From contig NZ_LOAJ01000001.1 of the NCBI RefSeq assembly GCF_001542905.1, positions 1,178,001 through 1,242,000 on the forward strand: a DNA stretch of 64,000 bases, in the 5' to 3' direction. Source of the DNA: Halorubrum aethiopicum (GTDB lineage: Archaea; Halobacteriota; Halobacteria; Halobacteriales; Haloferacaceae). The position numbers and the translations under genes are program-made. Below the pieces are notes generated by a model. The model was given only the letters and a program-made list of their open reading frames with translations, did no database searches and was not told the origin of the DNA. Below, piece by piece: positions 17,777-26,274 of this stretch. Numbering within the stretch: position 1 is the stretch's first letter; each line of letters opens with the position of its first letter.

Positions 17777-18262
17777 TCAGTGTCCGCCGCCGTCCGTCTC
17801 GATCGTCGTCTCCTCGTACTCGATGCCGGCCTCCTCGAGGAACGACGCCAGCGTCTCCATCCCACGGTCGAAGTCGAAGCCGACCCCGTCGATGTGGGCG
17901 TTGCCGGTCTCGGTCGGTTCGAGCTCCCAGTGGGCGTGAAGCTCGATCCGTCCGTCCTCGCCGTGCCAGCCGCGAAGGTGCGTCTGCCACCAGCGATACG
18001 TCGTCCCGTCGACCGTCCGTTCCTCGTACACCACGCGGGCGAGGTTCAGGATCTCGCCGCGCTCGTAGTAGGAGAATTCCCAGTTGGGCGCGAAACTGAA
18101 CGCGCCCAGCTCCCGTTCGAGCTCCGGGACCGTCCGGTCGACGACGAGGTACTCTCCCGAGGGTCTCGACGCCGTGAAAAGCGCCTTTCGAAGCTGGCGG
18201 TACGCGGTCCGAACGGCGTCGAACGGGACGTTGACGACGTCCCAGAGGTTGATCCCCGTCAT
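17777..18262 (-). CDS. Conserved hypothetical protein (161 aa)
   Basis: A soluble protein with alternating strands and many aromatics: 'APNWEFSYYERGEILNLARVVYEERTVDGTTYRWWQTHLRGWH', then 'RIELHAHWELEPTETGNAHIDGVGFDFDRGMETLASFLEEAGIEYEE'. The pattern suggests a compact alpha/beta or lipocalin-like beta fold. No catalytic signature, cysteine or membrane segment stands out. It lies 55 bp upstream of the lipoate-ligase-like gene on the same strand. Function unknown. Confidence 0.7.
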   Translation of the reverse strand: MTGINLWDVVNVPFDAVRTAYRQLRKALFTASRPSGEYLVVDRTVPELERELGAFSFAPNWEFSYYERGEILNLARVVYEERTVDGTTYRWWQTHLRGWHGEDGRIELHAHWELEPTETGNAHIDGVGFDFDRGMETLASFLEEAGIEYEETTIETDGGGH

Positions 18263-18711
18263 CTACCCGACCGAGAACGACGCGGGTGCGGTCGGAGCCG
18301 AGACGGACGCGGTGCGGTTCGTGGACCCGTCGGTCGTTGGATGCGCATAGTTGGCAATTGTCACCGAACTATTTAATACCGGATCCCAAACACGACCCGA
18401 CCGGGAACTGCCGTGTTACCGGGTTGCGTCCGTCCTTCGCGCGATCCGCCGCCTACCCGCGGGCGAATCCACTCCTCCGATCGGGACCGGTCGCCGTGGT
18501 GATCCCCCTCGGGCTCCCGCCCAAACGTTTAATCCTTGCCCGTGTGACACTATGGCATGATCGCTGCTCGGCGGACGGACGGTTCGCGCACGGAGACGAC
18601 GCTTCGGGGCCGTGCGAGCGACACGGTCGGGTCCGACGCGGCGACCGGACCCCGTACGCCGAGCGGGTCGGGTATGACCGAGCCGGTACGACCGAGCCGG
18701 GGTGAGCACGC
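18263..18711. promoter_or_regulatory. Divergent intergenic region with two TATA-like boxes
   Basis: A 449-bp gap. 'TATTTAATA' near 18369-18377 is nearly palindromic and could serve either strand, including the 161-aa gene to the left. 'GTTTAATCC' near 18528-18536 is followed about 25 bp later by an ATG at 18557 and would give GMC gene 1 (18712) a roughly 155-nt leader. Apart from the short frame at 18557, I see no gene or repeat. Confidence 0.4.
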
Positions 18712-18739
18712 ATGGTCGCGGACGCCTATGACGCGGTAG
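18557..18739 (+). CDS. Possible leaderless 60-aa ORF overlapping the GMC-1 start
   Basis: An ATG placed about 23-28 bp after the 'TTTAATCC' box, exactly where a leaderless haloarchaeal transcript would begin. The frame runs 60 codons and overlaps the first 28 nt of the GMC gene in another frame. The product is Arg/Thr/Ser/Gly-rich and looks disordered. It could be a regulatory uORF or a coincidence of GC-rich sequence. Confidence 0.22.
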   Translation: MIAARRTDGSRTETTLRGRASDTVGSDAATGPRTPSGSGMTEPVRPSRGEHAWSRTPMTR

Positions 18740-20421
18740 TGGTCGGGGCGGGCGGTGACGGCCCCGTGACGGCCTGGAAGCTGGCGGAGGCCGGGCTGTC
18801 GGTACTGGTACTCGAAGCCGGCCCGTTTCACGGCAACGAGCAGTGGCCGAACCCGCACGAGGAGCCGGGGGGAGAGGCCTCCTCGAGCGTCGAGGACCTG
18901 AGCGGCGACCTCCTCGACGAGCAGTTCACCACCCGCGAGTTCGAGATGCTGAACGAGCTGCTCTTCGGGCCGGCCGATCACGAGCGGGGGCTCTGGTTCC
19001 GGAAGTTCCCCGGCGACGGCGCGATCCTCCAGTGTGCCGGCGTCGGCGGCACCACCCTCCACTACCTCGGGAACCATCCCCGCGCGTACCCGGCGTCGAT
19101 CGACGAGCAGGGCCACTGGCCGATCGAGTACGCCGACCTGGTTCCCTACTATCGGGAGGTCGAGGAGATGTGTGAGGTCGCCCCCGCCCCGTTCACCGCC
19201 AAGGAGGAGCTCTTCGCCCGCGGGGCGGAGGCGGCGGGGTGGGACCTGATAGAGGACCTGAACGTCACCGAGCCGGGGTACCGGCCCCAGCCGAACGCGA
19301 TCAAGCGGCCGGACGAGCGGCTCCACGTCGACGGCGACTACGACGGCGAGTTCACCTATCCCGACGTGGAGGGCGACACCCTCGCGCTCGGCAACATCAC
19401 GGGGAACCCCCACCCGCGGGGCGCGCCCTTCGAGGAGAAGGCGAAACAAGCCAGCAACGTGAGCTTCGTTCCCGCGGCGCTACGCACCGACAACGTGACG
19501 ATCCGGCCGAACGCCTTCGTCACCGACGTGATCACCGAGCGGGGGTTGGGGGACGTTCCGACCGCGGCGGGCGTGGAGTTCCGGGACACGTGGTCGGGGT
19601 CGACGGAGCGGGTGGACGCGGAGGTGGTCGTCCTCGCGGCGGGGGCGATCGAGACGCCCAGGCTCTGGCTCAACGCCGATCTCCCCGAAAACGACTGGGT
19701 CGGTCGCGGGATGACCATCCACTTCCCGGACAGCGTGATGGGGCTGTGGGACGGCGACGATCTCGAGGAGACGATCGGGAAGAGGACGGTCGACCAGCAC
19801 CACGGCCAGGACAGCGCGGTCCGGTTCGACTATCCGGGCGTGGGGATGTTCCAGCCGATCACGGCCGCGCCCGGGATCGCCGCGTTCCTCGGCTTCGGCG
19901 CGAGCGCGTCGGGGTTCGCGTTCCAGAACGACCCCGCGGACGCGCCCTGGGACACGACGGGCCGGCTGGTCGGATCGGAACTCAAGCGACTGCTCGCGGA
20001 CTACCGCCGCCTCCTCCCCCTCTTCGTCCTCACCGACGACCGGCCGCACGAGCGCAACGGGATCTCGGTCGCGCCCGGGATCGCGGACGAGCACGGGCCG
20101 GTCGCGCAGGTCAACTTCGAGCCGAGCGAGGGGGATCGGAAGCGGCGGGACGAACTGGCGGAGATCGCGGCGGAGGTCCTGCGGGAGGCGGGGGCTTCAC
20201 ACGTCCACCGCTCGGACTCCCCGCCGACCGCCATCCACATCCACAGCACGATGCGGATGGGGAAGGTGGTGGACGAGGCGTGCGAGGCGTACGACGTGGA
20301 CCGGCTGTTCGTGGCCGATCACTCCGCGCTCGCGAACGGCGTCGGCGGACCGAACCCGACGAACACGGGGCAGGCGCTGGCCGCCCGCACGGGCGAGAAG
20401 ATCGTCGAGCGGCACTTCTGA
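18712..20421 (+). CDS. GMC-family FAD oxidoreductase, paralogue 1
   Basis: A 569-aa flavoprotein that oxidises an alcohol, sugar or sugar acid. The FAD-binding Rossmann motif is '[21 protein letters not shown]' shifted by a few residues from the N-terminus, followed by 'VLVLEAGP'. 'CAGVGGTTLHY' is the GMC flavin-cap motif. 'VVVLAAGAIETPRLWL' is GMC signature 2. The C-terminal active site has 'HIHSTMRMG' (catalytic His region) and 'NPTNTGQAL' (Asn). No signal peptide. The same-length paralogue at 24060 is near-identical over long stretches. It is followed after 7 bp by a membrane protein gene and probably co-transcribed with it. The electron acceptor is probably a partner protein, not O2 (inference from the gluconate-dehydrogenase-like partner). 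Confidence 0.92.
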   Translation: MVADAYDAVVVGAGGDGPVTAWKLAEAGLSVLVLEAGPFHGNEQWPNPHEEPGGEASSSVEDLSGDLLDEQFTTREFEMLNELLFGPADHERGLWFRKFPGDGAILQCAGVGGTTLHYLGNHPRAYPASIDEQGHWPIEYADLVPYYREVEEMCEVAPAPFTAKEELFARGAEAAGWDLIEDLNVTEPGYRPQPNAIKRPDERLHVDGDYDGEFTYPDVEGDTLALGNITGNPHPRGAPFEEKAKQASNVSFVPAALRTDNVTIRPNAFVTDVITERGLGDVPTAAGVEFRDTWSGSTERVDAEVVVLAAGAIETPRLWLNADLPENDWVGRGMTIHFPDSVMGLWDGDDLEETIGKRTVDQHHGQDSAVRFDYPGVGMFQPITAAPGIAAFLGFGASASGFAFQNDPADAPWDTTGRLVGSELKRLLADYRRLLPLFVLTDDRPHERNGISVAPGIADEHGPVAQVNFEPSEGDRKRRDELAEIAAEVLREAGASHVHRSDSPPTAIHIHSTMRMGKVVDEACEAYDVDRLFVADHSALANGVGGPNPTNTGQALAARTGEKIVERHF

Positions 20422-20428
20422 TCCACCC

Positions 20429-20824
20429 ATGCCGACCACGATCGACCCCGACCGGGTGCGGTACACGCCGCACGCCCTCGCGGCGACGTTGGTGTTCGAG
20501 TTCATGCATATCGCCGACGAACTCGCCGGGAACTGGGCTCCCTTCGACCCGATAAACGCCCCGCCGGTGGCGACGGTCGGGATGGGGGCGTTCACGCTCG
20601 TCGGCGCGGTGGGGTTGTGGTGGGTCGCGGCCGACCGGCCCTGGGGGTACGCGCTCGCGACCCTCTTCGGCCTCTTCTTCCTGCTGGCGGAGGGCTGGCA
20701 TCTCGTGGACCCGGCGCACATGACTCCAGTCCGGTGGGTGATCGTCCTCCTCGCACAGCTCTCGGGCGCGGTCACGGTGGTCCTCGGCGCGACCGGCCTC
20801 CGCGTCCACGAGCCGTGGCGCTAG
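20429..20824 (+). CDS. Small membrane protein downstream of GMC-1
   Basis: A 131-aa protein starting 7 bp after the GMC-1 stop, hence in the same operon. It has about four hydrophobic segments: 'HALAATLVFEFMHIADEL', 'MGAFTLVGAVGLWWVAA', 'GYALATLFGLFFLLAEGWHL' and 'WVIVLLAQLSGAVTVVLGATGL'. Conserved-looking His in 'FMHIADE' and 'EGWHLVDPAHMTP' could bind a cofactor such as heme, which would suit an electron-accepting membrane partner (speculation). I do not recognise the family. Confidence 0.65.
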   Translation: MPTTIDPDRVRYTPHALAATLVFEFMHIADELAGNWAPFDPINAPPVATVGMGAFTLVGAVGLWWVAADRPWGYALATLFGLFFLLAEGWHLVDPAHMTPVRWVIVLLAQLSGAVTVVLGATGLRVHEPWR

Positions 20825-20867
20825 CGTCTCCCCGCGCCGACACCGCGTTCCGTCCGCGGAACCGACG

Positions 20868-21551
20868 CTACCGGGGGAAGACCACGTCGGGCTCCTCGAT
20901 CGCCGTGAGGTTCGCGGCCACCTCGAGGATCACCCCGCCGAGCGCCTCCCGCATGTCGAGGTACCAGAACTCCAGCCCGTCGAAGACGCCGCTCTGGACC
21001 ACCGGGATCCCCGCGTCCTCGTACTCCGCGACGACCGCGTGCGGGTCGTCGTAGGCGAAACAGCCGACGTGGTGGATCCCCTCGCCGCCCTCGGCGAGGT
21101 GCTCCGTGTACGTGCTCGGTCCCCGCAGCGGCTCGATCAGCTCCACGTTCACGCCCGGGATCCCCGGCGTCGGTAGCTCCGGGAGCGGGATCCCTGGCGG
21201 CGGTTCTCCGTCTCCACTCCCGTCCGGACCGGTCCCCGCTGACGATCCGAACCCGAGCAGGTCGCGGAGCGACGTCAGCCACCCGAGCAGGCGCTTGACC
21301 GTGCCTCCCCCGGCGACGGACGCCGCCGCGTCGATCGGTCCCTTGACGTCCGCCATCGCCACCCGCATCGAGTACTCGGCGGGCTCGCCGCGGTAGGTCG
21401 TGTCCGTCAGCCGCGGCGGCTCGTAGCGGTACACCAGCCACGGCTCGACGCCGAGGAGATCACCGAACCGGCGCATGCTCTCTTCGAGGTCCTCGACGAC
21501 GAACGCGACGTGCGAGATCTCCGGCAGCGGCTTCTCGATCTTCGGGCGCAT
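20868..21551 (-). CDS. VOC-superfamily (glyoxalase/epimerase-like) protein with Pro/Gly insert
   Basis: About 227 aa from the ATG at 21551. The N-terminal module 'ISHVAFVVEDLEESMRRFGDLLGVEPW' and the C-terminal 'HHVGCFAYDDPHAVVAEYEDAGIPVVQSG' followed by 'FWYLDMREALGGVILEVAA' are the two beta-alpha-beta-beta-beta modules of the vicinal-oxygen-chelate fold. The metal-ligand positions are the His residues in 'SHVAF' and 'HHVGC' and the Glu in 'LEVAA', as in methylmalonyl-CoA epimerase and glyoxalase I. Between the modules lies an unusual segment (about 70-120) rich in Gly, Ser and Pro. It is the last gene of the reverse-strand group 22955-20868. The substrate is unknown. Confidence 0.78.
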   Translation of the reverse strand: MRPKIEKPLPEISHVAFVVEDLEESMRRFGDLLGVEPWLVYRYEPPRLTDTTYRGEPAEYSMRVAMADVKGPIDAAASVAGGGTVKRLLGWLTSLRDLLGFGSSAGTGPDGSGDGEPPPGIPLPELPTPGIPGVNVELIEPLRGPSTYTEHLAEGGEGIHHVGCFAYDDPHAVVAEYEDAGIPVVQSGVFDGLEFWYLDMREALGGVILEVAANLTAIEEPDVVFPR

Positions 21552-21669
21552 CGGGTCGCTCACGGGCACCACCGGCCCGCCACGCCGCCGCCGGTCCGCT
21601 CTCCCGACCCCGGTCGCTCGCGTCCGGGGCGTCCGGAGCGTCCGAGTCGACGCGACACGTCCATGCGGC

Positions 21670-22608
21670 TCACGCCTCCGGCCCGTCCTTCGCCTCCATC
21701 ACGTAGTAGAGACAGAGCCGGTCCTCCGTCGGCGTGTCCTCGGCGTGGAGGTGGCCCAACGAGCCCTCACCGAGCGACGGCAGCAGCTGGCGCTCGTTCT
21801 GACAGTACTTCCCGACCATGAACTCCTCCGTCACCTGGCGGATCTCGTCGTGCCAGTTCGAGAAGTCGAACATCTGTAGCTGCTCCTCGTCGAAGTCGAG
21901 CCGGACGTCGCCGCCCGCCGCGTCGAGCACCTCGTAGCGCCCGTCGACGCCGTGTTCGGTGGTCTCGAACTCGAACTCGAAGTGCGGGGCCGACAGCCCG
22001 GCGTTCGAGACGAGCCGGACGTCCCACCACCCCTCGAGCGCGTCGGGCTCGGGGACCGTCCCCTCTTCCCACAGCGCCGCGTGGTCCGCCGGCGCGAGGA
22101 AGTCGAAGTCGTACCGCCGCGTCAGTCCGAACGTCAGGAGACGGATCCCGTACGGGAACCGGCCGACGAACGCCTTGCCGACCGCGAGGTCCTCGGTGAC
22201 CGGCAACAGGAGGTCGTAGAACGGGCGGTACTGGAGGTCCGTGTAGGTGAGTAAGCCGTACGGCCGCCCCTCGTGTTCCACCTCCCGGATCCGGTTGTGG
22301 CCGGTGACGACGCCGTCGGCGTCCGTCGTCTCGCCGACGTACGCGTCGCCGTCGGGCCGGAACCGCTTGTGGAACCCGGCCGGCAGCGGCAGGAACCGGT
22401 TCGCGGTGCTGACGACGTGGTCCGACGGGAAGAACCCGCGCCAGTGCTCGTCGACGCGGACCTCCCGTTCGGGGACGTTCACCCGCCGTCCTCCCTCGTT
22501 GACGAGCGTCTCCAGCGGGAGCGGGTCCGCCGTCCGGAACACCGCCTCGATCGTTTCGCGGGTGCTGCCCCTCGGGTCGTCCGTGAACGCCTCGGTGTGT
22601 TCGTTCAT
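21670..22608 (-). CDS. Conserved hypothetical protein (312 aa) in the GMC region
   Basis: A soluble acidic protein without membrane segments or obvious catalytic motifs. The middle part has many aromatics ('GLLTYTDLQYRPFYDLLLPVTEDLAVGKAFVG', 'LTFGLTRRYDFDFLAPADHAALWEEG'). The C-terminal part has 'FEFEFETTEHGVDGRYEVLDA' and 'YCQNERQLLPSLGEGSLG'. The many beta strands suggest a lipocalin or START-like binding fold, but I cannot name it. It lies 38 bp downstream of the membrane gene at 22647 and 118 bp upstream of the VOC gene, all on the reverse strand, so the three probably form one operon between the two GMC units. Confidence 0.7.
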   Translation of the reverse strand: MNEHTEAFTDDPRGSTRETIEAVFRTADPLPLETLVNEGGRRVNVPEREVRVDEHWRGFFPSDHVVSTANRFLPLPAGFHKRFRPDGDAYVGETTDADGVVTGHNRIREVEHEGRPYGLLTYTDLQYRPFYDLLLPVTEDLAVGKAFVGRFPYGIRLLTFGLTRRYDFDFLAPADHAALWEEGTVPEPDALEGWWDVRLVSNAGLSAPHFEFEFETTEHGVDGRYEVLDAAGGDVRLDFDEEQLQMFDFSNWHDEIRQVTEEFMVGKYCQNERQLLPSLGEGSLGHLHAEDTPTEDRLCLYYVMEAKDGPEA

Positions 22609-22646
22609 GTCGTCTCACCCGTGTGATCGACCCGTCCCCGGCGGCG

Positions 22647-22955
22647 TCAGTCGTCGCAGAGATCGAGTCCCAGCTTCATCCAGAGCGGATAGGCGGCGAA
22701 CATGATGACGGCGAGGACGTCCGTTCCCGGTCCCCTGGTCAGATCCGTGTCCAGCCCCGAGTTCAGCATCCACTCGGGGCCGTCCTCGTCGGTGAACCAC
22801 CACGGGAGGACGTCGAGGTACAGCAGCGTGCTCGTGGTGAGAAACGTGAGCACGACGCCCGCGGCCAACCGGGCGCGACGAACCGGCGATCCGACGTAGC
22901 GGTCGAGCAGGACGCCGATGCCCACGAGCGCGGGAGGATCCAACAGAAAGCTCAT
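22647..22955 (-). CDS. Small membrane protein, first gene of the reverse operon
   Basis: A 102-aa protein with about three hydrophobic segments ('PPALVGIGVLLDRYVG', 'ARLAAGVVLTFLTTSTLLYLDVLPWWF', 'GTDVLAVIMFAAYPLWMKLGL') separated by an acidic loop. The ATG at 22955 is preceded by 'GGAGAGG' and, about 45 bp upstream, by the AT-rich 'AATAATATAGA' box, so the mRNA has a short leader with a Shine-Dalgarno site. Family not recognised. Position suggests a link with the flanking GMC oxidoreductases. Confidence 0.68.
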   Translation of the reverse strand: MSFLLDPPALVGIGVLLDRYVGSPVRRARLAAGVVLTFLTTSTLLYLDVLPWWFTDEDGPEWMLNSGLDTDLTRGPGTDVLAVIMFAAYPLWMKLGLDLCDD

Positions 22956-22995
22956 TGTCCCTTGATACCTCTCCACACGTACTTGTTGGGTCATC

Positions 22996-23006
22996 AATAA
23001 TATAGA
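22996..23006 (-). promoter_or_regulatory. Promoter of the reverse-strand operon
   Basis: A strongly AT-rich patch ('TCTATATTATT' on the reverse strand) in GC-rich surroundings, about 40-50 bp upstream of the ATG at 22955. A second T-rich box at 23126-23132 faces the other way and serves 23157. Confidence 0.5.
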
Positions 23007-23156
23007 TTTTGGTGGATCGCGGTCGCCGCCGGCGCGTCCGCGTCGGGCACGCTCGCCGCCGTTCGCGTCCGGACGCTCGCGCCCGCGGTCCGTGACGCGC
23101 CGATCGAAGGATGTCATCGGGACAAGATTTTTCCACTCGCTCGTTCCACTTGATTC

Positions 23157-24053
23157 ATGGTAACTAGTCGCATCGGGGCGTGGCTGACGGCCGCGCGGCG
23201 AAGCCTGACGTCCACCGTGGGACTGCTCTTGGAGCTCCTCGGGATCGGTCCGGACGTCGACCCCCACACGCGGGTGACGTTCCGGGCCATCGCCGACGCG
23301 GTCGTTCCCGAGACGCCGGCGCTCGCGGAGGAGATCGGCCCGGAACACGTCGCCGGCGGGCTCGCGATCGACCTCGACGAGTTCGCGATCACCTACGTGG
23401 ACGACGGCTTCCAGTTCGGGCTCCCCCATCTCGGCCCCCAGGGGAACATCCCGATCGCGGACCCGATCGCCCACGTCCTCGACGCGGCGGCGCTGACGCT
23501 CGTGGAGCGCGGCGACAACGAGGCGGAGCCGAGCCTCGACCGCGCGCTGTCGCTTCTCGGCCCCGACGATCCCTCGGCGGCGAAGACCGAAGACGCGGTC
23601 GGCCCGTTCGCGAAGCTGTCGCGGCGCGACCGGCTGCGGGCCATCGCCATCCTCGACGAGTTCGAGGTCGAGTTCACTCCGACCGACCACGACCTCCTCG
23701 AGCTGGACGCCGGCCTCGTCGGCCAGCTCGTCGTCGGCTTCATGGAGATGATCTACTACAGCGAGTGGCAGGGGTACGACGAGTTCACGCAACCCCCGAG
23801 CCGGCGCGAACATCCGAACGACCCGGCCGCGGTTCAGAGCTGGCGACAGACCGGCTTCCCGGGGTTCGCGAACGGCTACGCCGCGTTGCGCGGGTACGTC
23901 GGGACCGCCGACGGCCCGCTCGGCGACGGCGACGCGTGGACGACGATAGACGAGTCGACCGGGGTCGCGATCCGCCGCGAGCCCGGGTCGTTCCGCGAGA
24001 ACGAGTACGACACGAGCGGCTACGAGGAGCCGTTCCCCGTCGAGTCCGGGTGA
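23157..24053 (+). CDS. Gluconate 2-dehydrogenase subunit 3-like protein (GMC partner)
   Basis: A 298-aa protein whose stop is 6 bp before GMC-2, so the two are one operon. 'HTRVTFRAIADAVVPETPALAEEIG' (about 36-60) resembles the 'L..I.D.ivP' start of gluconate 2-dehydrogenase subunit 3 and of the N-terminal region of long-chain alcohol oxidases. These partner the GMC flavoprotein. 'GFMEMIYYSEWQGYDEF' and 'SWRQTGFPGFANGYAALRGY' are also in keeping with that family. The N-terminus has 'ARRSLTSTVGLLLELLGIG', a twin-arginine-like hydrophobic start, but it is not a clean Tat signal. The assignment is by pattern and context; a search would settle it. Confidence 0.6.
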   Translation: MVTSRIGAWLTAARRSLTSTVGLLLELLGIGPDVDPHTRVTFRAIADAVVPETPALAEEIGPEHVAGGLAIDLDEFAITYVDDGFQFGLPHLGPQGNIPIADPIAHVLDAAALTLVERGDNEAEPSLDRALSLLGPDDPSAAKTEDAVGPFAKLSRRDRLRAIAILDEFEVEFTPTDHDLLELDAGLVGQLVVGFMEMIYYSEWQGYDEFTQPPSRREHPNDPAAVQSWRQTGFPGFANGYAALRGYVGTADGPLGDGDAWTTIDESTGVAIRREPGSFRENEYDTSGYEEPFPVESG

Positions 24054-24059
24054 GCGCCG

Positions 24060-25769
24060 ATGGTCGAGAACGCCTACGACGCGGTGGTGGTGGGGGCGGG
24101 CGGTGACGGTCCGGTGACGGCCTGGAAGCTGGCGGAGGCCGGACTCTCCGTGCTGGTGCTGGAGGCCGGCCCGTTTCACGGCAACGAGCAGTGGCCGAAC
24201 CCGCACGAGGAGCCGGGCGGAGAGGCCTCCTCGAGCGTCGAGGACCTGAGCGGCGACCTCCTCGACGAGCAGTTCACCACCCGCGAGCTCGAGATGATCA
24301 CGAACCTCGTGTTCGGGCCGGCAGACCACGAGCGGGGGTTCTGGTTCCGGAAGTTCCCCGGCGACGGAGCGATCCTCCAGTGTGCCGGCGTCGGCGGCAC
24401 CACCCTCCACTACACCGGCTGTCACCCCCGCGCGTACCCGGCGTCGATCGACGAGCAGGGCCACTGGCCGATCGAGTACGCCGACCTGGTTCCCTACTAT
24501 CGGGAGGTCGAGGAGATGTGCGAGGTCGCGCCCGCCCCGGTCACCGCCAAGGAGGAGCTGTTCTTCCGCGGGGCGGAGGCGGCGGGGTGGGACCTGATAG
24601 AGGACCTGAACGTCACCGAGCCGGGGTACCGGCCCCAGCCGAACGCGATCCGACAACCGGACGAGAAGCTCCACGTCGACGGCGACTACGACGGCGAGTT
24701 CACCTATCCCGACGTGGAGGGCGACACCCTCGCGCTCGGCAACATCGCCGGGAATCCGCATCCGCGGGGCGCCCCCTTCGAGGAGAAGGCGAAACGGGCG
24801 AGCAACGTGAGCTTCGTCCCTGCGGCGCTACGCACCGACAACGTCACGATCCGGCCGAACGCCTTCGTCACCGACGTGCTGACGGAGACCCCCCGGGGCG
24901 ACACGCCCACGGCGACGGGCGTGGAGTTCCGGGACACGTGGTCGGGGGCGACGGAGCGGGTGGACGCGGAGGTGGTCGTCCTCGCGGCGGGGGCGATCGA
25001 GACGCCCAGACTCTGGCTCAACGCCGATCTCCCCGAAAACGACTGGGTCGGCCGCGGGCTGACGATCCACTTCGGCGACAACGTGATGGGGCTGTGGGAC
25101 GGCGACGACCTCGAGGAGACGATCGGCAAGCCGACCGTCGACCAACACGAGGGACAGGACATCGCCGCCCGCCTCGACTACCCCGGCGTGGGCATGCTCC
25201 AGACGGTCGGCACCGCGCCGGGGATCGGGGCGATCCTCGGGTTCGGCGCGAGCGCGTCGGGGTTCGCGTTCCAGAACGACCCCGCTGACGCGCCCTGGGA
25301 CACGATGGGACGGCTAGCAGGGAGCGATCTCAAACGCCTGCTCTCCGACTACCGCCGGATGTTACAGGTGCTCGTCGTGAGCGACGACCGCCCCCATCAA
25401 CGAAACGGCGTGAGCGTCGCTCCGGGTGCCTCGGACGAGCACGGACCGATCCCGATCGTCAACTACGAGCCGAGTGAGGGCGACCGGAAGCGGCGGGACG
25501 AACTCGCCGAGACGGCGGCCGAGATCCTGCGGGAGGCGGGGGCCTCGCACGTCCACCGCTCGGACTCCCCGCCGACGGCGCTCCACGTCCACAGCACGAT
25601 GCGGATGGGGAAGGTGGTGGACGAGGCGTGTGAGGCGTACGACGTGGACCGGCTGTTCGTGGCCGATCACTCCGCGCTCGCGAACGGCGTCGGCGGCGCG
25701 AATCCGACGAACACGGGGCAGGCGCTGGCCGCCCGCACGGGCGAGAAGATCGTCGAGCGGCACTTCTGA
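24060..25769 (+). CDS. GMC-family FAD oxidoreductase, paralogue 2
   Basis: A 569-aa flavoprotein, the same length as the gene at 18712 and with the same motifs: 'GAGGDG' FAD loop, 'CAGVGGTTLHY', 'LAAGAIETPRLWL', 'HVHSTMRMG' and 'NPTNTGQAL'. DNA identity is nearly complete at the 5' end (first 180 bp) and the 3' end (last 200 bp) but lower around residues 250-430, a mosaic that suggests duplication with gene conversion. Substitutions in the cap region (for example 'LGNHPRAYP' in paralogue 1, 'TGCHPRAYP' here) may change the substrate. It is co-transcribed with the subunit-3-like gene, which could serve both paralogues. Confidence 0.92.
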   Translation: MVENAYDAVVVGAGGDGPVTAWKLAEAGLSVLVLEAGPFHGNEQWPNPHEEPGGEASSSVEDLSGDLLDEQFTTRELEMITNLVFGPADHERGFWFRKFPGDGAILQCAGVGGTTLHYTGCHPRAYPASIDEQGHWPIEYADLVPYYREVEEMCEVAPAPVTAKEELFFRGAEAAGWDLIEDLNVTEPGYRPQPNAIRQPDEKLHVDGDYDGEFTYPDVEGDTLALGNIAGNPHPRGAPFEEKAKRASNVSFVPAALRTDNVTIRPNAFVTDVLTETPRGDTPTATGVEFRDTWSGATERVDAEVVVLAAGAIETPRLWLNADLPENDWVGRGLTIHFGDNVMGLWDGDDLEETIGKPTVDQHEGQDIAARLDYPGVGMLQTVGTAPGIGAILGFGASASGFAFQNDPADAPWDTMGRLAGSDLKRLLSDYRRMLQVLVVSDDRPHQRNGVSVAPGASDEHGPIPIVNYEPSEGDRKRRDELAETAAEILREAGASHVHRSDSPPTALHVHSTMRMGKVVDEACEAYDVDRLFVADHSALANGVGGANPTNTGQALAARTGEKIVERHF

Positions 25770-25851: not shown

Positions 25852-26274
25852 TCACGCCGGGTCGCGGACGCGGCGCTTCAGCACGAACGAGTACCTGGAG
25901 CCCTCCCGCCACTCCGCGACGCTCCCCTCGTGGATCTCGCCCGAGGAGTACACGCGCTCGTCGTCGAACGCGATCACGTGCCGGGGCCAGGGGTACGGGA
26001 GGTTCCAGCAGAACCCGATCCCGATCCCGTCGCGGTCGTGCGCGACGGCCCACGAGAGCGCGACGAGCGCGTAGTCCTCGCAGTCCCCGCGGTCCGCCTC
26101 GACGCACTCGCGCGGCCGCCGCGCGAAGTCCCGGAAGCCGTTCCACGGGTCCTGCGTCCAGTCGTACTCCGACCGGGACCACTCCGCGAGGTCGAACTCC
26201 TCCCACCGATCGTCGCGGTCGACGTAGCGACTGGGTGCGAGGAAGGTGAACGGCGTCCATCGCCGGAGGTCCAT
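25852..26274 (-). CDS. Transglutaminase-like cysteine protease-fold protein
   Basis: A 140-aa protein. 'ECVEADRGDCEDYALVALSWAV' matches the catalytic Cys helix (GDCEDYA) of bacterial-type transglutaminase-like peptidases. 'PRHVIAFDDERVYSSG' provides the His and the following Asp of the triad. It is shorter than typical members and has no signal peptide. Substrate unknown. It is divergent from rio2. Confidence 0.65.
   Translation of the reverse strand: MDLRRWTPFTFLAPSRYVDRDDRWEEFDLAEWSRSEYDWTQDPWNGFRDFARRPRECVEADRGDCEDYALVALSWAVAHDRDGIGIGFCWNLPYPWPRHVIAFDDERVYSSGEIHEGSVAEWREGSRYSFVLKRRVRDPA

Follow-up and report, generated by a model that had tools for sequence, protein, structure and literature searches.

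In the FAD-dependent glucose dehydrogenase of Burkholderia (BcGDH), the gamma subunit, on which folding and secretion depend, is a hitchhiker of the twin-arginine translocation (Tat) pathway, Cys212, Cys218 and Cys222 hold a 3Fe-4S cluster, the beta subunit contains three haems c, and the structure shows continuous density from His105 to the FAD (PMC6719666). Here we analyzed a comparable pair of genes, GSU3 (23157-24053, + strand) and GMC2 (24060-25769, + strand), together with a second GMC gene, GMC1 (18712-20421, + strand), in 64,000 nucleotides of the 3.3 Mb genome of the haloarchaeon Halorubrum aethiopicum (contig NZ_LOAJ01000001.1, positions 1,178,001 to 1,242,000). This whole stretch is referred to as the window, and coordinates are positions within it. 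GSU3 encodes a small subunit resembling subunit 3 of gluconate-2-dehydrogenase, GMC2 encodes the conserved catalytic subunit of 569 amino acids (aa), and GMC1 encodes a 569-aa flavoprotein, a derived paralogue with no GSU3 gene directly upstream. Our preferred explanation, to which we assign a probability of about 0.55, is that an old two-subunit GMC dehydrogenase lost its Tat signal in the clade of the window, and that GMC1 was retargeted in the company of a rare gene module.

As in BcGDH and the fructose dehydrogenases (FDH), the haloarchaeal system combines a GMC catalytic subunit, with a predicted FAD-attachment histidine and a His/Asn pair, and a separate small subunit gene directly upstream, which in most haloarchaeal relatives carries a Tat signal. 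GMC1 and GMC2 are both intact open reading frames that match PF00732 and PF05199 above the Pfam gathering cut-offs. The nearest solved structures by sequence are those of FAD-glucose dehydrogenase (8hdd, 6a2u) and of the large subunits of fructose dehydrogenase, with a weak match (E about 1e-12). His117 of GMC2, present in 60 of the 71 GMC sequences compared, aligns with the FAD-linked His105 of BcGDH, and from this alignment a covalent link is predicted. H509 (70/71) and N548 (69/71) were assigned as the catalytic His/Asn pair by alignment with FAD-glucose dehydrogenases. Unlike BcGDH and FDH, the haloarchaeal pair lacks the cysteines of the 3Fe-4S cluster, as GMC2 has cysteines at 108, 121, 154 and 524 only and no relative has more than one in the cluster region. 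No trihaem cytochrome c was found either: neither the window nor any of 25 related loci contains an open frame with at least two CxxCH motifs. In the window's clade the pair also has no Tat signal. GSU3 and GMC2 would thus form an old haloarchaeal two-subunit alcohol dehydrogenase, working like the alpha-gamma pair of the bacterial FAD-dependent glucose, fructose and gluconate dehydrogenases, in which an alcohol or sugar would be oxidised by the His/Asn pair on a FAD that is bound, probably covalently, to the histidine.

Closest in layout are the cytochrome-less pairs of gluconate-2-dh3 and GMC genes (Paraburkholderia, Komagataeibacter, Deinococcus, Caballeronia plasmids), which also consist of two genes with the small subunit first; three of these bacterial small subunits likewise have no Tat signal in the annotated N-terminus. 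They differ from the haloarchaeal pair in that GMC identity is below 30%, the small subunits do not align significantly to GSU3, and neither M131 nor U312, two genes of the module described below, is found among their annotated neighbours. The best NCBIfam matches of the GMCs were the models for MftG (the mycofactocin-associated GMC) and choline dehydrogenase, but at 47-59 bits against cut-offs of 387-605. Membership in MftG, the mycofactocin dehydrogenase, was rejected on these scores (59 bits against an equivalog cut-off of 387), and a Streptomyces GMC with flanking hypothetical genes showed no similarity when these were compared with U312 and GSU3.

The GMC family is present in 48 of the 392 genomes searched from the haloarchaeal order, belonging to 19 of 95 genera, and in nearly all relatives a GSU3 homologue stands directly upstream of the GMC gene. 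An earlier interpretation of the window, made from its letters alone (the sequence-only reading), had pointed out the gluconate-dehydrogenase-subunit-3-like protein in front of GMC2, and this arrangement proved to be a two-gene unit conserved across genera. The reading frame of GSU3 is open and its ratio of non-synonymous to synonymous substitution rates (dN/dS) between genomes is 0.20, which indicates purifying selection. The conserved unit is the GSU3-GMC2 pair only, and the wider neighbourhood varies by lineage. In several Haloarculaceae and Natronomonadaceae, trpC-trpB-trpA and sometimes LonB lie near the pair, which we took as a matter of location and not of function. The sequence-only reading had counted the membrane proteins of the locus as part of the system; this part is not supported, since nearly all other carriers of the pair are without them, and the pair does not need them. 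Two complete GSU3-GMC pairs stand in tandem in Haloglomus halophilum (L058, 8742-15036), with GMCs 72% and 53% identical, a duplication distinct from that of the window. In the open-access literature we found no description of the haloarchaeal GSU3-GMC pair or of its Tat loss.

Tat signals were called in the small subunits with a simple pattern, and five rows were relabelled by eye: the label was dropped for L036 and L047, as their RR sits in a charged region ahead of the conserved start, L129 and L130 were counted as Tat-bearing, and L060 as unclear. In Halorientalis, Halorarius, Haloglomus and many others (47 sequences of relatives), the small subunit starts with a clear twin-arginine signal, and there is none in the small subunits of Halorubrum, including the window, Halobellus, Salinigranum and their clade. 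In several of the latter, a longer form is ruled out by a stop codon that lies in frame a short way ahead of the conserved start. With the signal region left out of the small-subunit tree, the 16 sequences of the window's group that have no Tat signal formed a single clade (support 95/87), sister to Tat-bearing Halorientalis, which implies one loss of the signal in a Haloferacaceae-centred clade. GMC itself starts at its FAD-binding motif, with no signal of its own. In most haloarchaea the folded pair would presumably be exported by hitchhiking on the Tat signal of the small subunit. After the single loss in the window's clade, the GSU3-GMC2 complex is presumably cytoplasmic, and the enzyme would deliver its electrons on that side to an acceptor. 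In Halorubrum rubrum, GSU3 is absent from the whole genome (98% complete), and the GMC gene has a dN/dS of about 0.11 against its neighbours, so that purifying selection has been kept despite the loss of GSU3. An amphipathic N-terminal helix in place of the Tat signal was significant in some species and not in the window (p=0.39), and it is not claimed here. A second, separate GMC clade of four rows (L135, L164, L165, L170) is also accompanied by small subunits seemingly without a Tat signal, and its GMCs are richer in cysteine.

We also compared GMC1 with GMC2, which the sequence-only reading had described as two 569-aa proteins with near-identical ends. The genes share 88.9% nucleotide identity and 508 of 569 encoded residues, the last 30 nucleotides (nt) are identical, and differences are concentrated mid-gene; the description of the ends was too simple, since four blocks are homogenised (nt 1-236, about 514-685, 856-990 and 1540-1707) and two are diverged. 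With relatives as reference, the duplicated unit is approximately the GMC gene alone, as the two copies resemble each other from 18 nt ahead of the start codon until 2 nt past the stop. Both full copies were available for comparison with the window in one genome, that of the uncultured A07HR67. Between these two genomes, 67 sites were of paralogue type, with GMC1 of the window siding with GMC1 of A07HR67 against both GMC2s, 85 were of genome type, with the two copies of each genome matching each other, and 11 followed a third pattern. Sites of the first two types were grouped along the gene more than in any of 20000 permutations, and within each genome the longest stretches of identity exceeded expectation (p about 0.002). 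This site mosaic is the result of gene conversion acting on an old duplication, and conversion within each genome explains the near-identical ends. Gene conversion between genome copies is well documented in polyploid haloarchaea (e.g. PMC11276520).

Thirty-five residues are copy-specific, with 23 of them in 334-469 and six in 80-121. Those of GMC1 are common to the window and A07HR67, so that the duplication predates the split of these genomes and GMC1 is not a recent copy. At most of the 35 sites the GMC2 state is found in single-copy Halorubrum and also in Salinigranum, Halorientalis and Halobellus, and GMC1 is therefore the derived copy. Several copy-specific residues fall at active-site motifs, namely 119 and 121 by His117, 508 and 510 by His509, and 547 before Asn548. 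Segments 80-122 and 331-470 retain the paralogue difference, with dN values of 0.12 and 0.165 between copies and of 0.00 and 0.03 between genomes (GMC1). For both copies dN/dS between genomes is near 0.08, and within the genome dS between GMC1 and GMC2 is 0.29 compared to 0.56 between orthologues. The catalytic gene has been duplicated in four genomes, and GMC1 changed near the active site and in 331-470, the remainder being kept like GMC2 by conversion. A simple GMC1/GMC2 crossover as the origin of the H. rubrum GMC was weakly supported and was rejected; the body of that gene is of GMC2 type and its upstream sequence matches that of GMC1 up to window position 18377.

As the sequence-only reading had stated, the two GMC genes bracket genes of the reverse strand, all of which are real: VOC (20868-21572), encoding a VOC-fold protein (Glyoxalase_4, PF13669), U312 (21670-22608), encoding a 312-aa protein with no family assigned, and M102 (22647-22955), encoding a small membrane protein whose conserved start MSFLLDPP sets the gene start and corrects its length to 102 aa. 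Between GMC1 and VOC lies M131 (20429-20824, + strand), encoding a small membrane protein of 131 aa in which three to four segments are hydrophobic. GMC1-type sequence, M131, long VOC and U312 turned up in the same four genomes only, those of the window, Halorubrum sp. CBA1125, A07HR67 and the Haloarculaceae bin JAHENO, and GMC1-type sequence accompanies the module in 4/4; the co-occurrence elsewhere that the sequence-only reading had made its own test was thus found. Where contigs allow, the order M131-VOC-U312-M102-GSU3-GMC is present in CBA1125, A07HR67 and JAHENO. The adjacency of GMC1 and M131 in the window is not conserved, and a fixed place of M131 right behind GMC1 as its partner is not supported, because a reverse-strand SnoaL-like gene stands between the two in A07HR67 and JAHENO and an SDR gene of epimerase/3-beta-HSD (hydroxysteroid dehydrogenase) type precedes M131 in CBA1125. 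In Halorubrum aquaticum (L046), the sequence upstream of GMC1 runs straight into the 3' end of the M102 gene and M102 is kept alone, which indicates that this species lost, or never had, GMC1 through U312. The truncated appearance of VOC and U312 in A07HR67, considered as decay, is in fact a scaffold gap of Ns.

M131 has an open reading frame with a dN/dS of 0.25-0.51 between genomes, indicating purifying selection, and its histidine-containing motifs TPH, FMHxADELAG and WHxxDPA are conserved in all four relatives; a search of 342 haloarchaeal genomes gave no further true relative besides the window. A possible role of M131 as electron acceptor draws on these conserved histidines. U312, with a dN/dS of 0.37-0.43 between genomes, is 72% identical in the other module carriers; besides the window, 392 haloarchaeal genomes yielded no true relative (chance NadB matches occurred in two haloarchaea), Pfam, NCBIfam and PHROG gave no match, no plasmid or viral-contig relative was found, and the AlphaFold model was unusable (mean pLDDT 34). 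The VOC protein of the window has a linker of about 64 aa between its two halves, which is lacking in relatives, and both halves are about 55-65% identical to the best-matching of these. Its identification as methylmalonyl-CoA epimerase was rejected (TIGR03081, 31.7 bits against an equivalog cut-off of 115). Linker-less VOC relatives occur in haloarchaeal operons of acetoin-dehydrogenase type (E1 alpha, E1 beta, AcoX-like, E2-OsmC); unlike them, the window VOC has the linker and none of these operon partners nearby. In many haloarchaea (L104-L119) a 177-aa VOC stands beside E1 alpha, E1 beta, an AcoX-like protein of NAD-kinase fold and a fusion of 2-oxoacid-dehydrogenase E2 with OsmC, which suggests a role of this VOC in an acetoin-dehydrogenase-type complex; the E2-OsmC fusion looks unusual.

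GMC1 thus travels with a rare set of genes, M131, long VOC, U312 and M102, joined in relatives by SnoaL and SDR. On the likeliest reading, GMC1 would act on another alcohol as an oxidising enzyme, perhaps sharing GSU3, and the enzymes of the module would isomerise or cleave the product. For the GSU3-GMC2 half of the proposed mechanism we draw on homology and comparative evidence, and for the GMC1-module half on co-occurrence in four genomes.

The same observations were weighed under other explanations. The GSU3-GMC pair could be an unrelated neighbour of a transferred cluster that has a different task, GMC1 being a passenger that served as the homology arm for integration. Four features of the data fit this arrangement, namely the scattered distribution of the cluster over just four genomes, the direct junction in H. 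aquaticum at the same locus, the acetoin-dehydrogenase-type genes that adjoin the VOC relatives, and the duplication of the GMC gene alone. A passenger would not be expected to show the low dN/dS of GMC1 (0.08 between genomes) or to keep copy-specific active-site residues despite conversion, and the gene order is maintained across a family boundary; we consider this explanation rather unlikely. The pathway proposed by the sequence-only reading, taken as one respiratory oxidation chain in which M131 is the electron acceptor in the membrane, VOC an epimerase or lyase and U312 a binding protein beside the flavoprotein and its partner subunit, is improbable. It draws on the co-occurrence in four genomes and on the conserved M131 histidines, but most GSU3-GMC pairs are without M131, an opposite-strand gene separates M131 from GMC1 in two of the four genomes, no haem or quinone site has been demonstrated, and U312 has neither a family nor a usable fold. 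Least probable is an ordinary recent tandem duplication under relaxed constraint and heading to loss. The lower dS within the genome than between orthologues and the lack of a GMC1-type gene in H. rubrum and H. aquaticum would agree with it, yet the 35 residues shared by copy in two genomes date the duplication before their split, non-synonymous divergence between the copies falls largely in two segments, and both copies stay under constraint between genomes. Unless convergence or faulty assembly accounts for the shared residues, the data already contradict this explanation.

Several results also weigh against the explanation that we prefer, a Tat-less dehydrogenase whose derived copy was retargeted. 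Membership of GSU3 in its family is not statistically secure, as the best match to PF13618, in a Haloglomus relative (L058), reached E=0.014; comparison with bacterial small subunits (hhalign) was not significant, with two short motifs common in the same order, and the GSU3 AlphaFold model was poor and gave no match in the PDB. In the GMC tree, Tat-bearing Halorientalis falls inside or beside the group without Tat signal, with support that is not decisive. The cytoplasmic site of the enzyme is presumed. GMCs without a Tat partner have a mean of 3.84 cysteines compared to 1.92 in the nearest Tat relatives, a rise that is expected if the enzyme now stays inside the cell, and these means are uncorrected for kinship. 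The co-occurrence of GMC1 and the module involves four genomes, of which two are known from draft or metagenomic assemblies, and in JAHENO a GMC1-like gene follows GSU3, perhaps through conversion or misassembly.

The borders of the locus are also kept within Halorubrum. H161 (17777-18262, - strand), encoding a 161-aa protein, is its conserved left neighbour in this genus, and on the right of GMC2 lies the gene of a 140-aa protein (25852-26274, - strand) whose position is kept in Halorubrum. In H. saccharovorum, H. persicum and one further Halorubrum, a single GMC gene is flanked by H161 on its left side and by the gene of the 140-aa protein on its right. Weaker relatives of H161 stand beside GSU3-GMC in Halobellus and others. 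Scans of H161 with Pfam and NCBIfam gave no match, and a weak one (E=4e-7) was obtained with PHROG 6788, a virus-derived family whose function is not known. The 140-aa protein had no Pfam match and contains GDCEDYA and PRHVIAF motifs, like transglutaminase-like cysteine peptidases.

A fuller course of events can be proposed only tentatively: the Tat loss would have moved the enzyme inside the cell, GSU3 would then have become dispensable, as in H. rubrum, and the catalytic subunit would have been duplicated and retargeted to a new catabolic module including the U312 family, with conversion preserving the shared scaffold while selection kept the copies distinct in two segments of the substrate site. 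Descriptions of hitchhiker subunits present them as carriers by which the catalytic partner is exported. The tree-placed single loss of the Tat signal, with the later loss of the subunit in H. rubrum and an enzyme still under selection, is a natural experiment on what the small subunit does other than export. The paralogue pair reveals the residues that selection holds apart against ongoing gene conversion, and these residues point to the positions that determine the substrate in an as yet uncharacterised family of archaeal enzymes.

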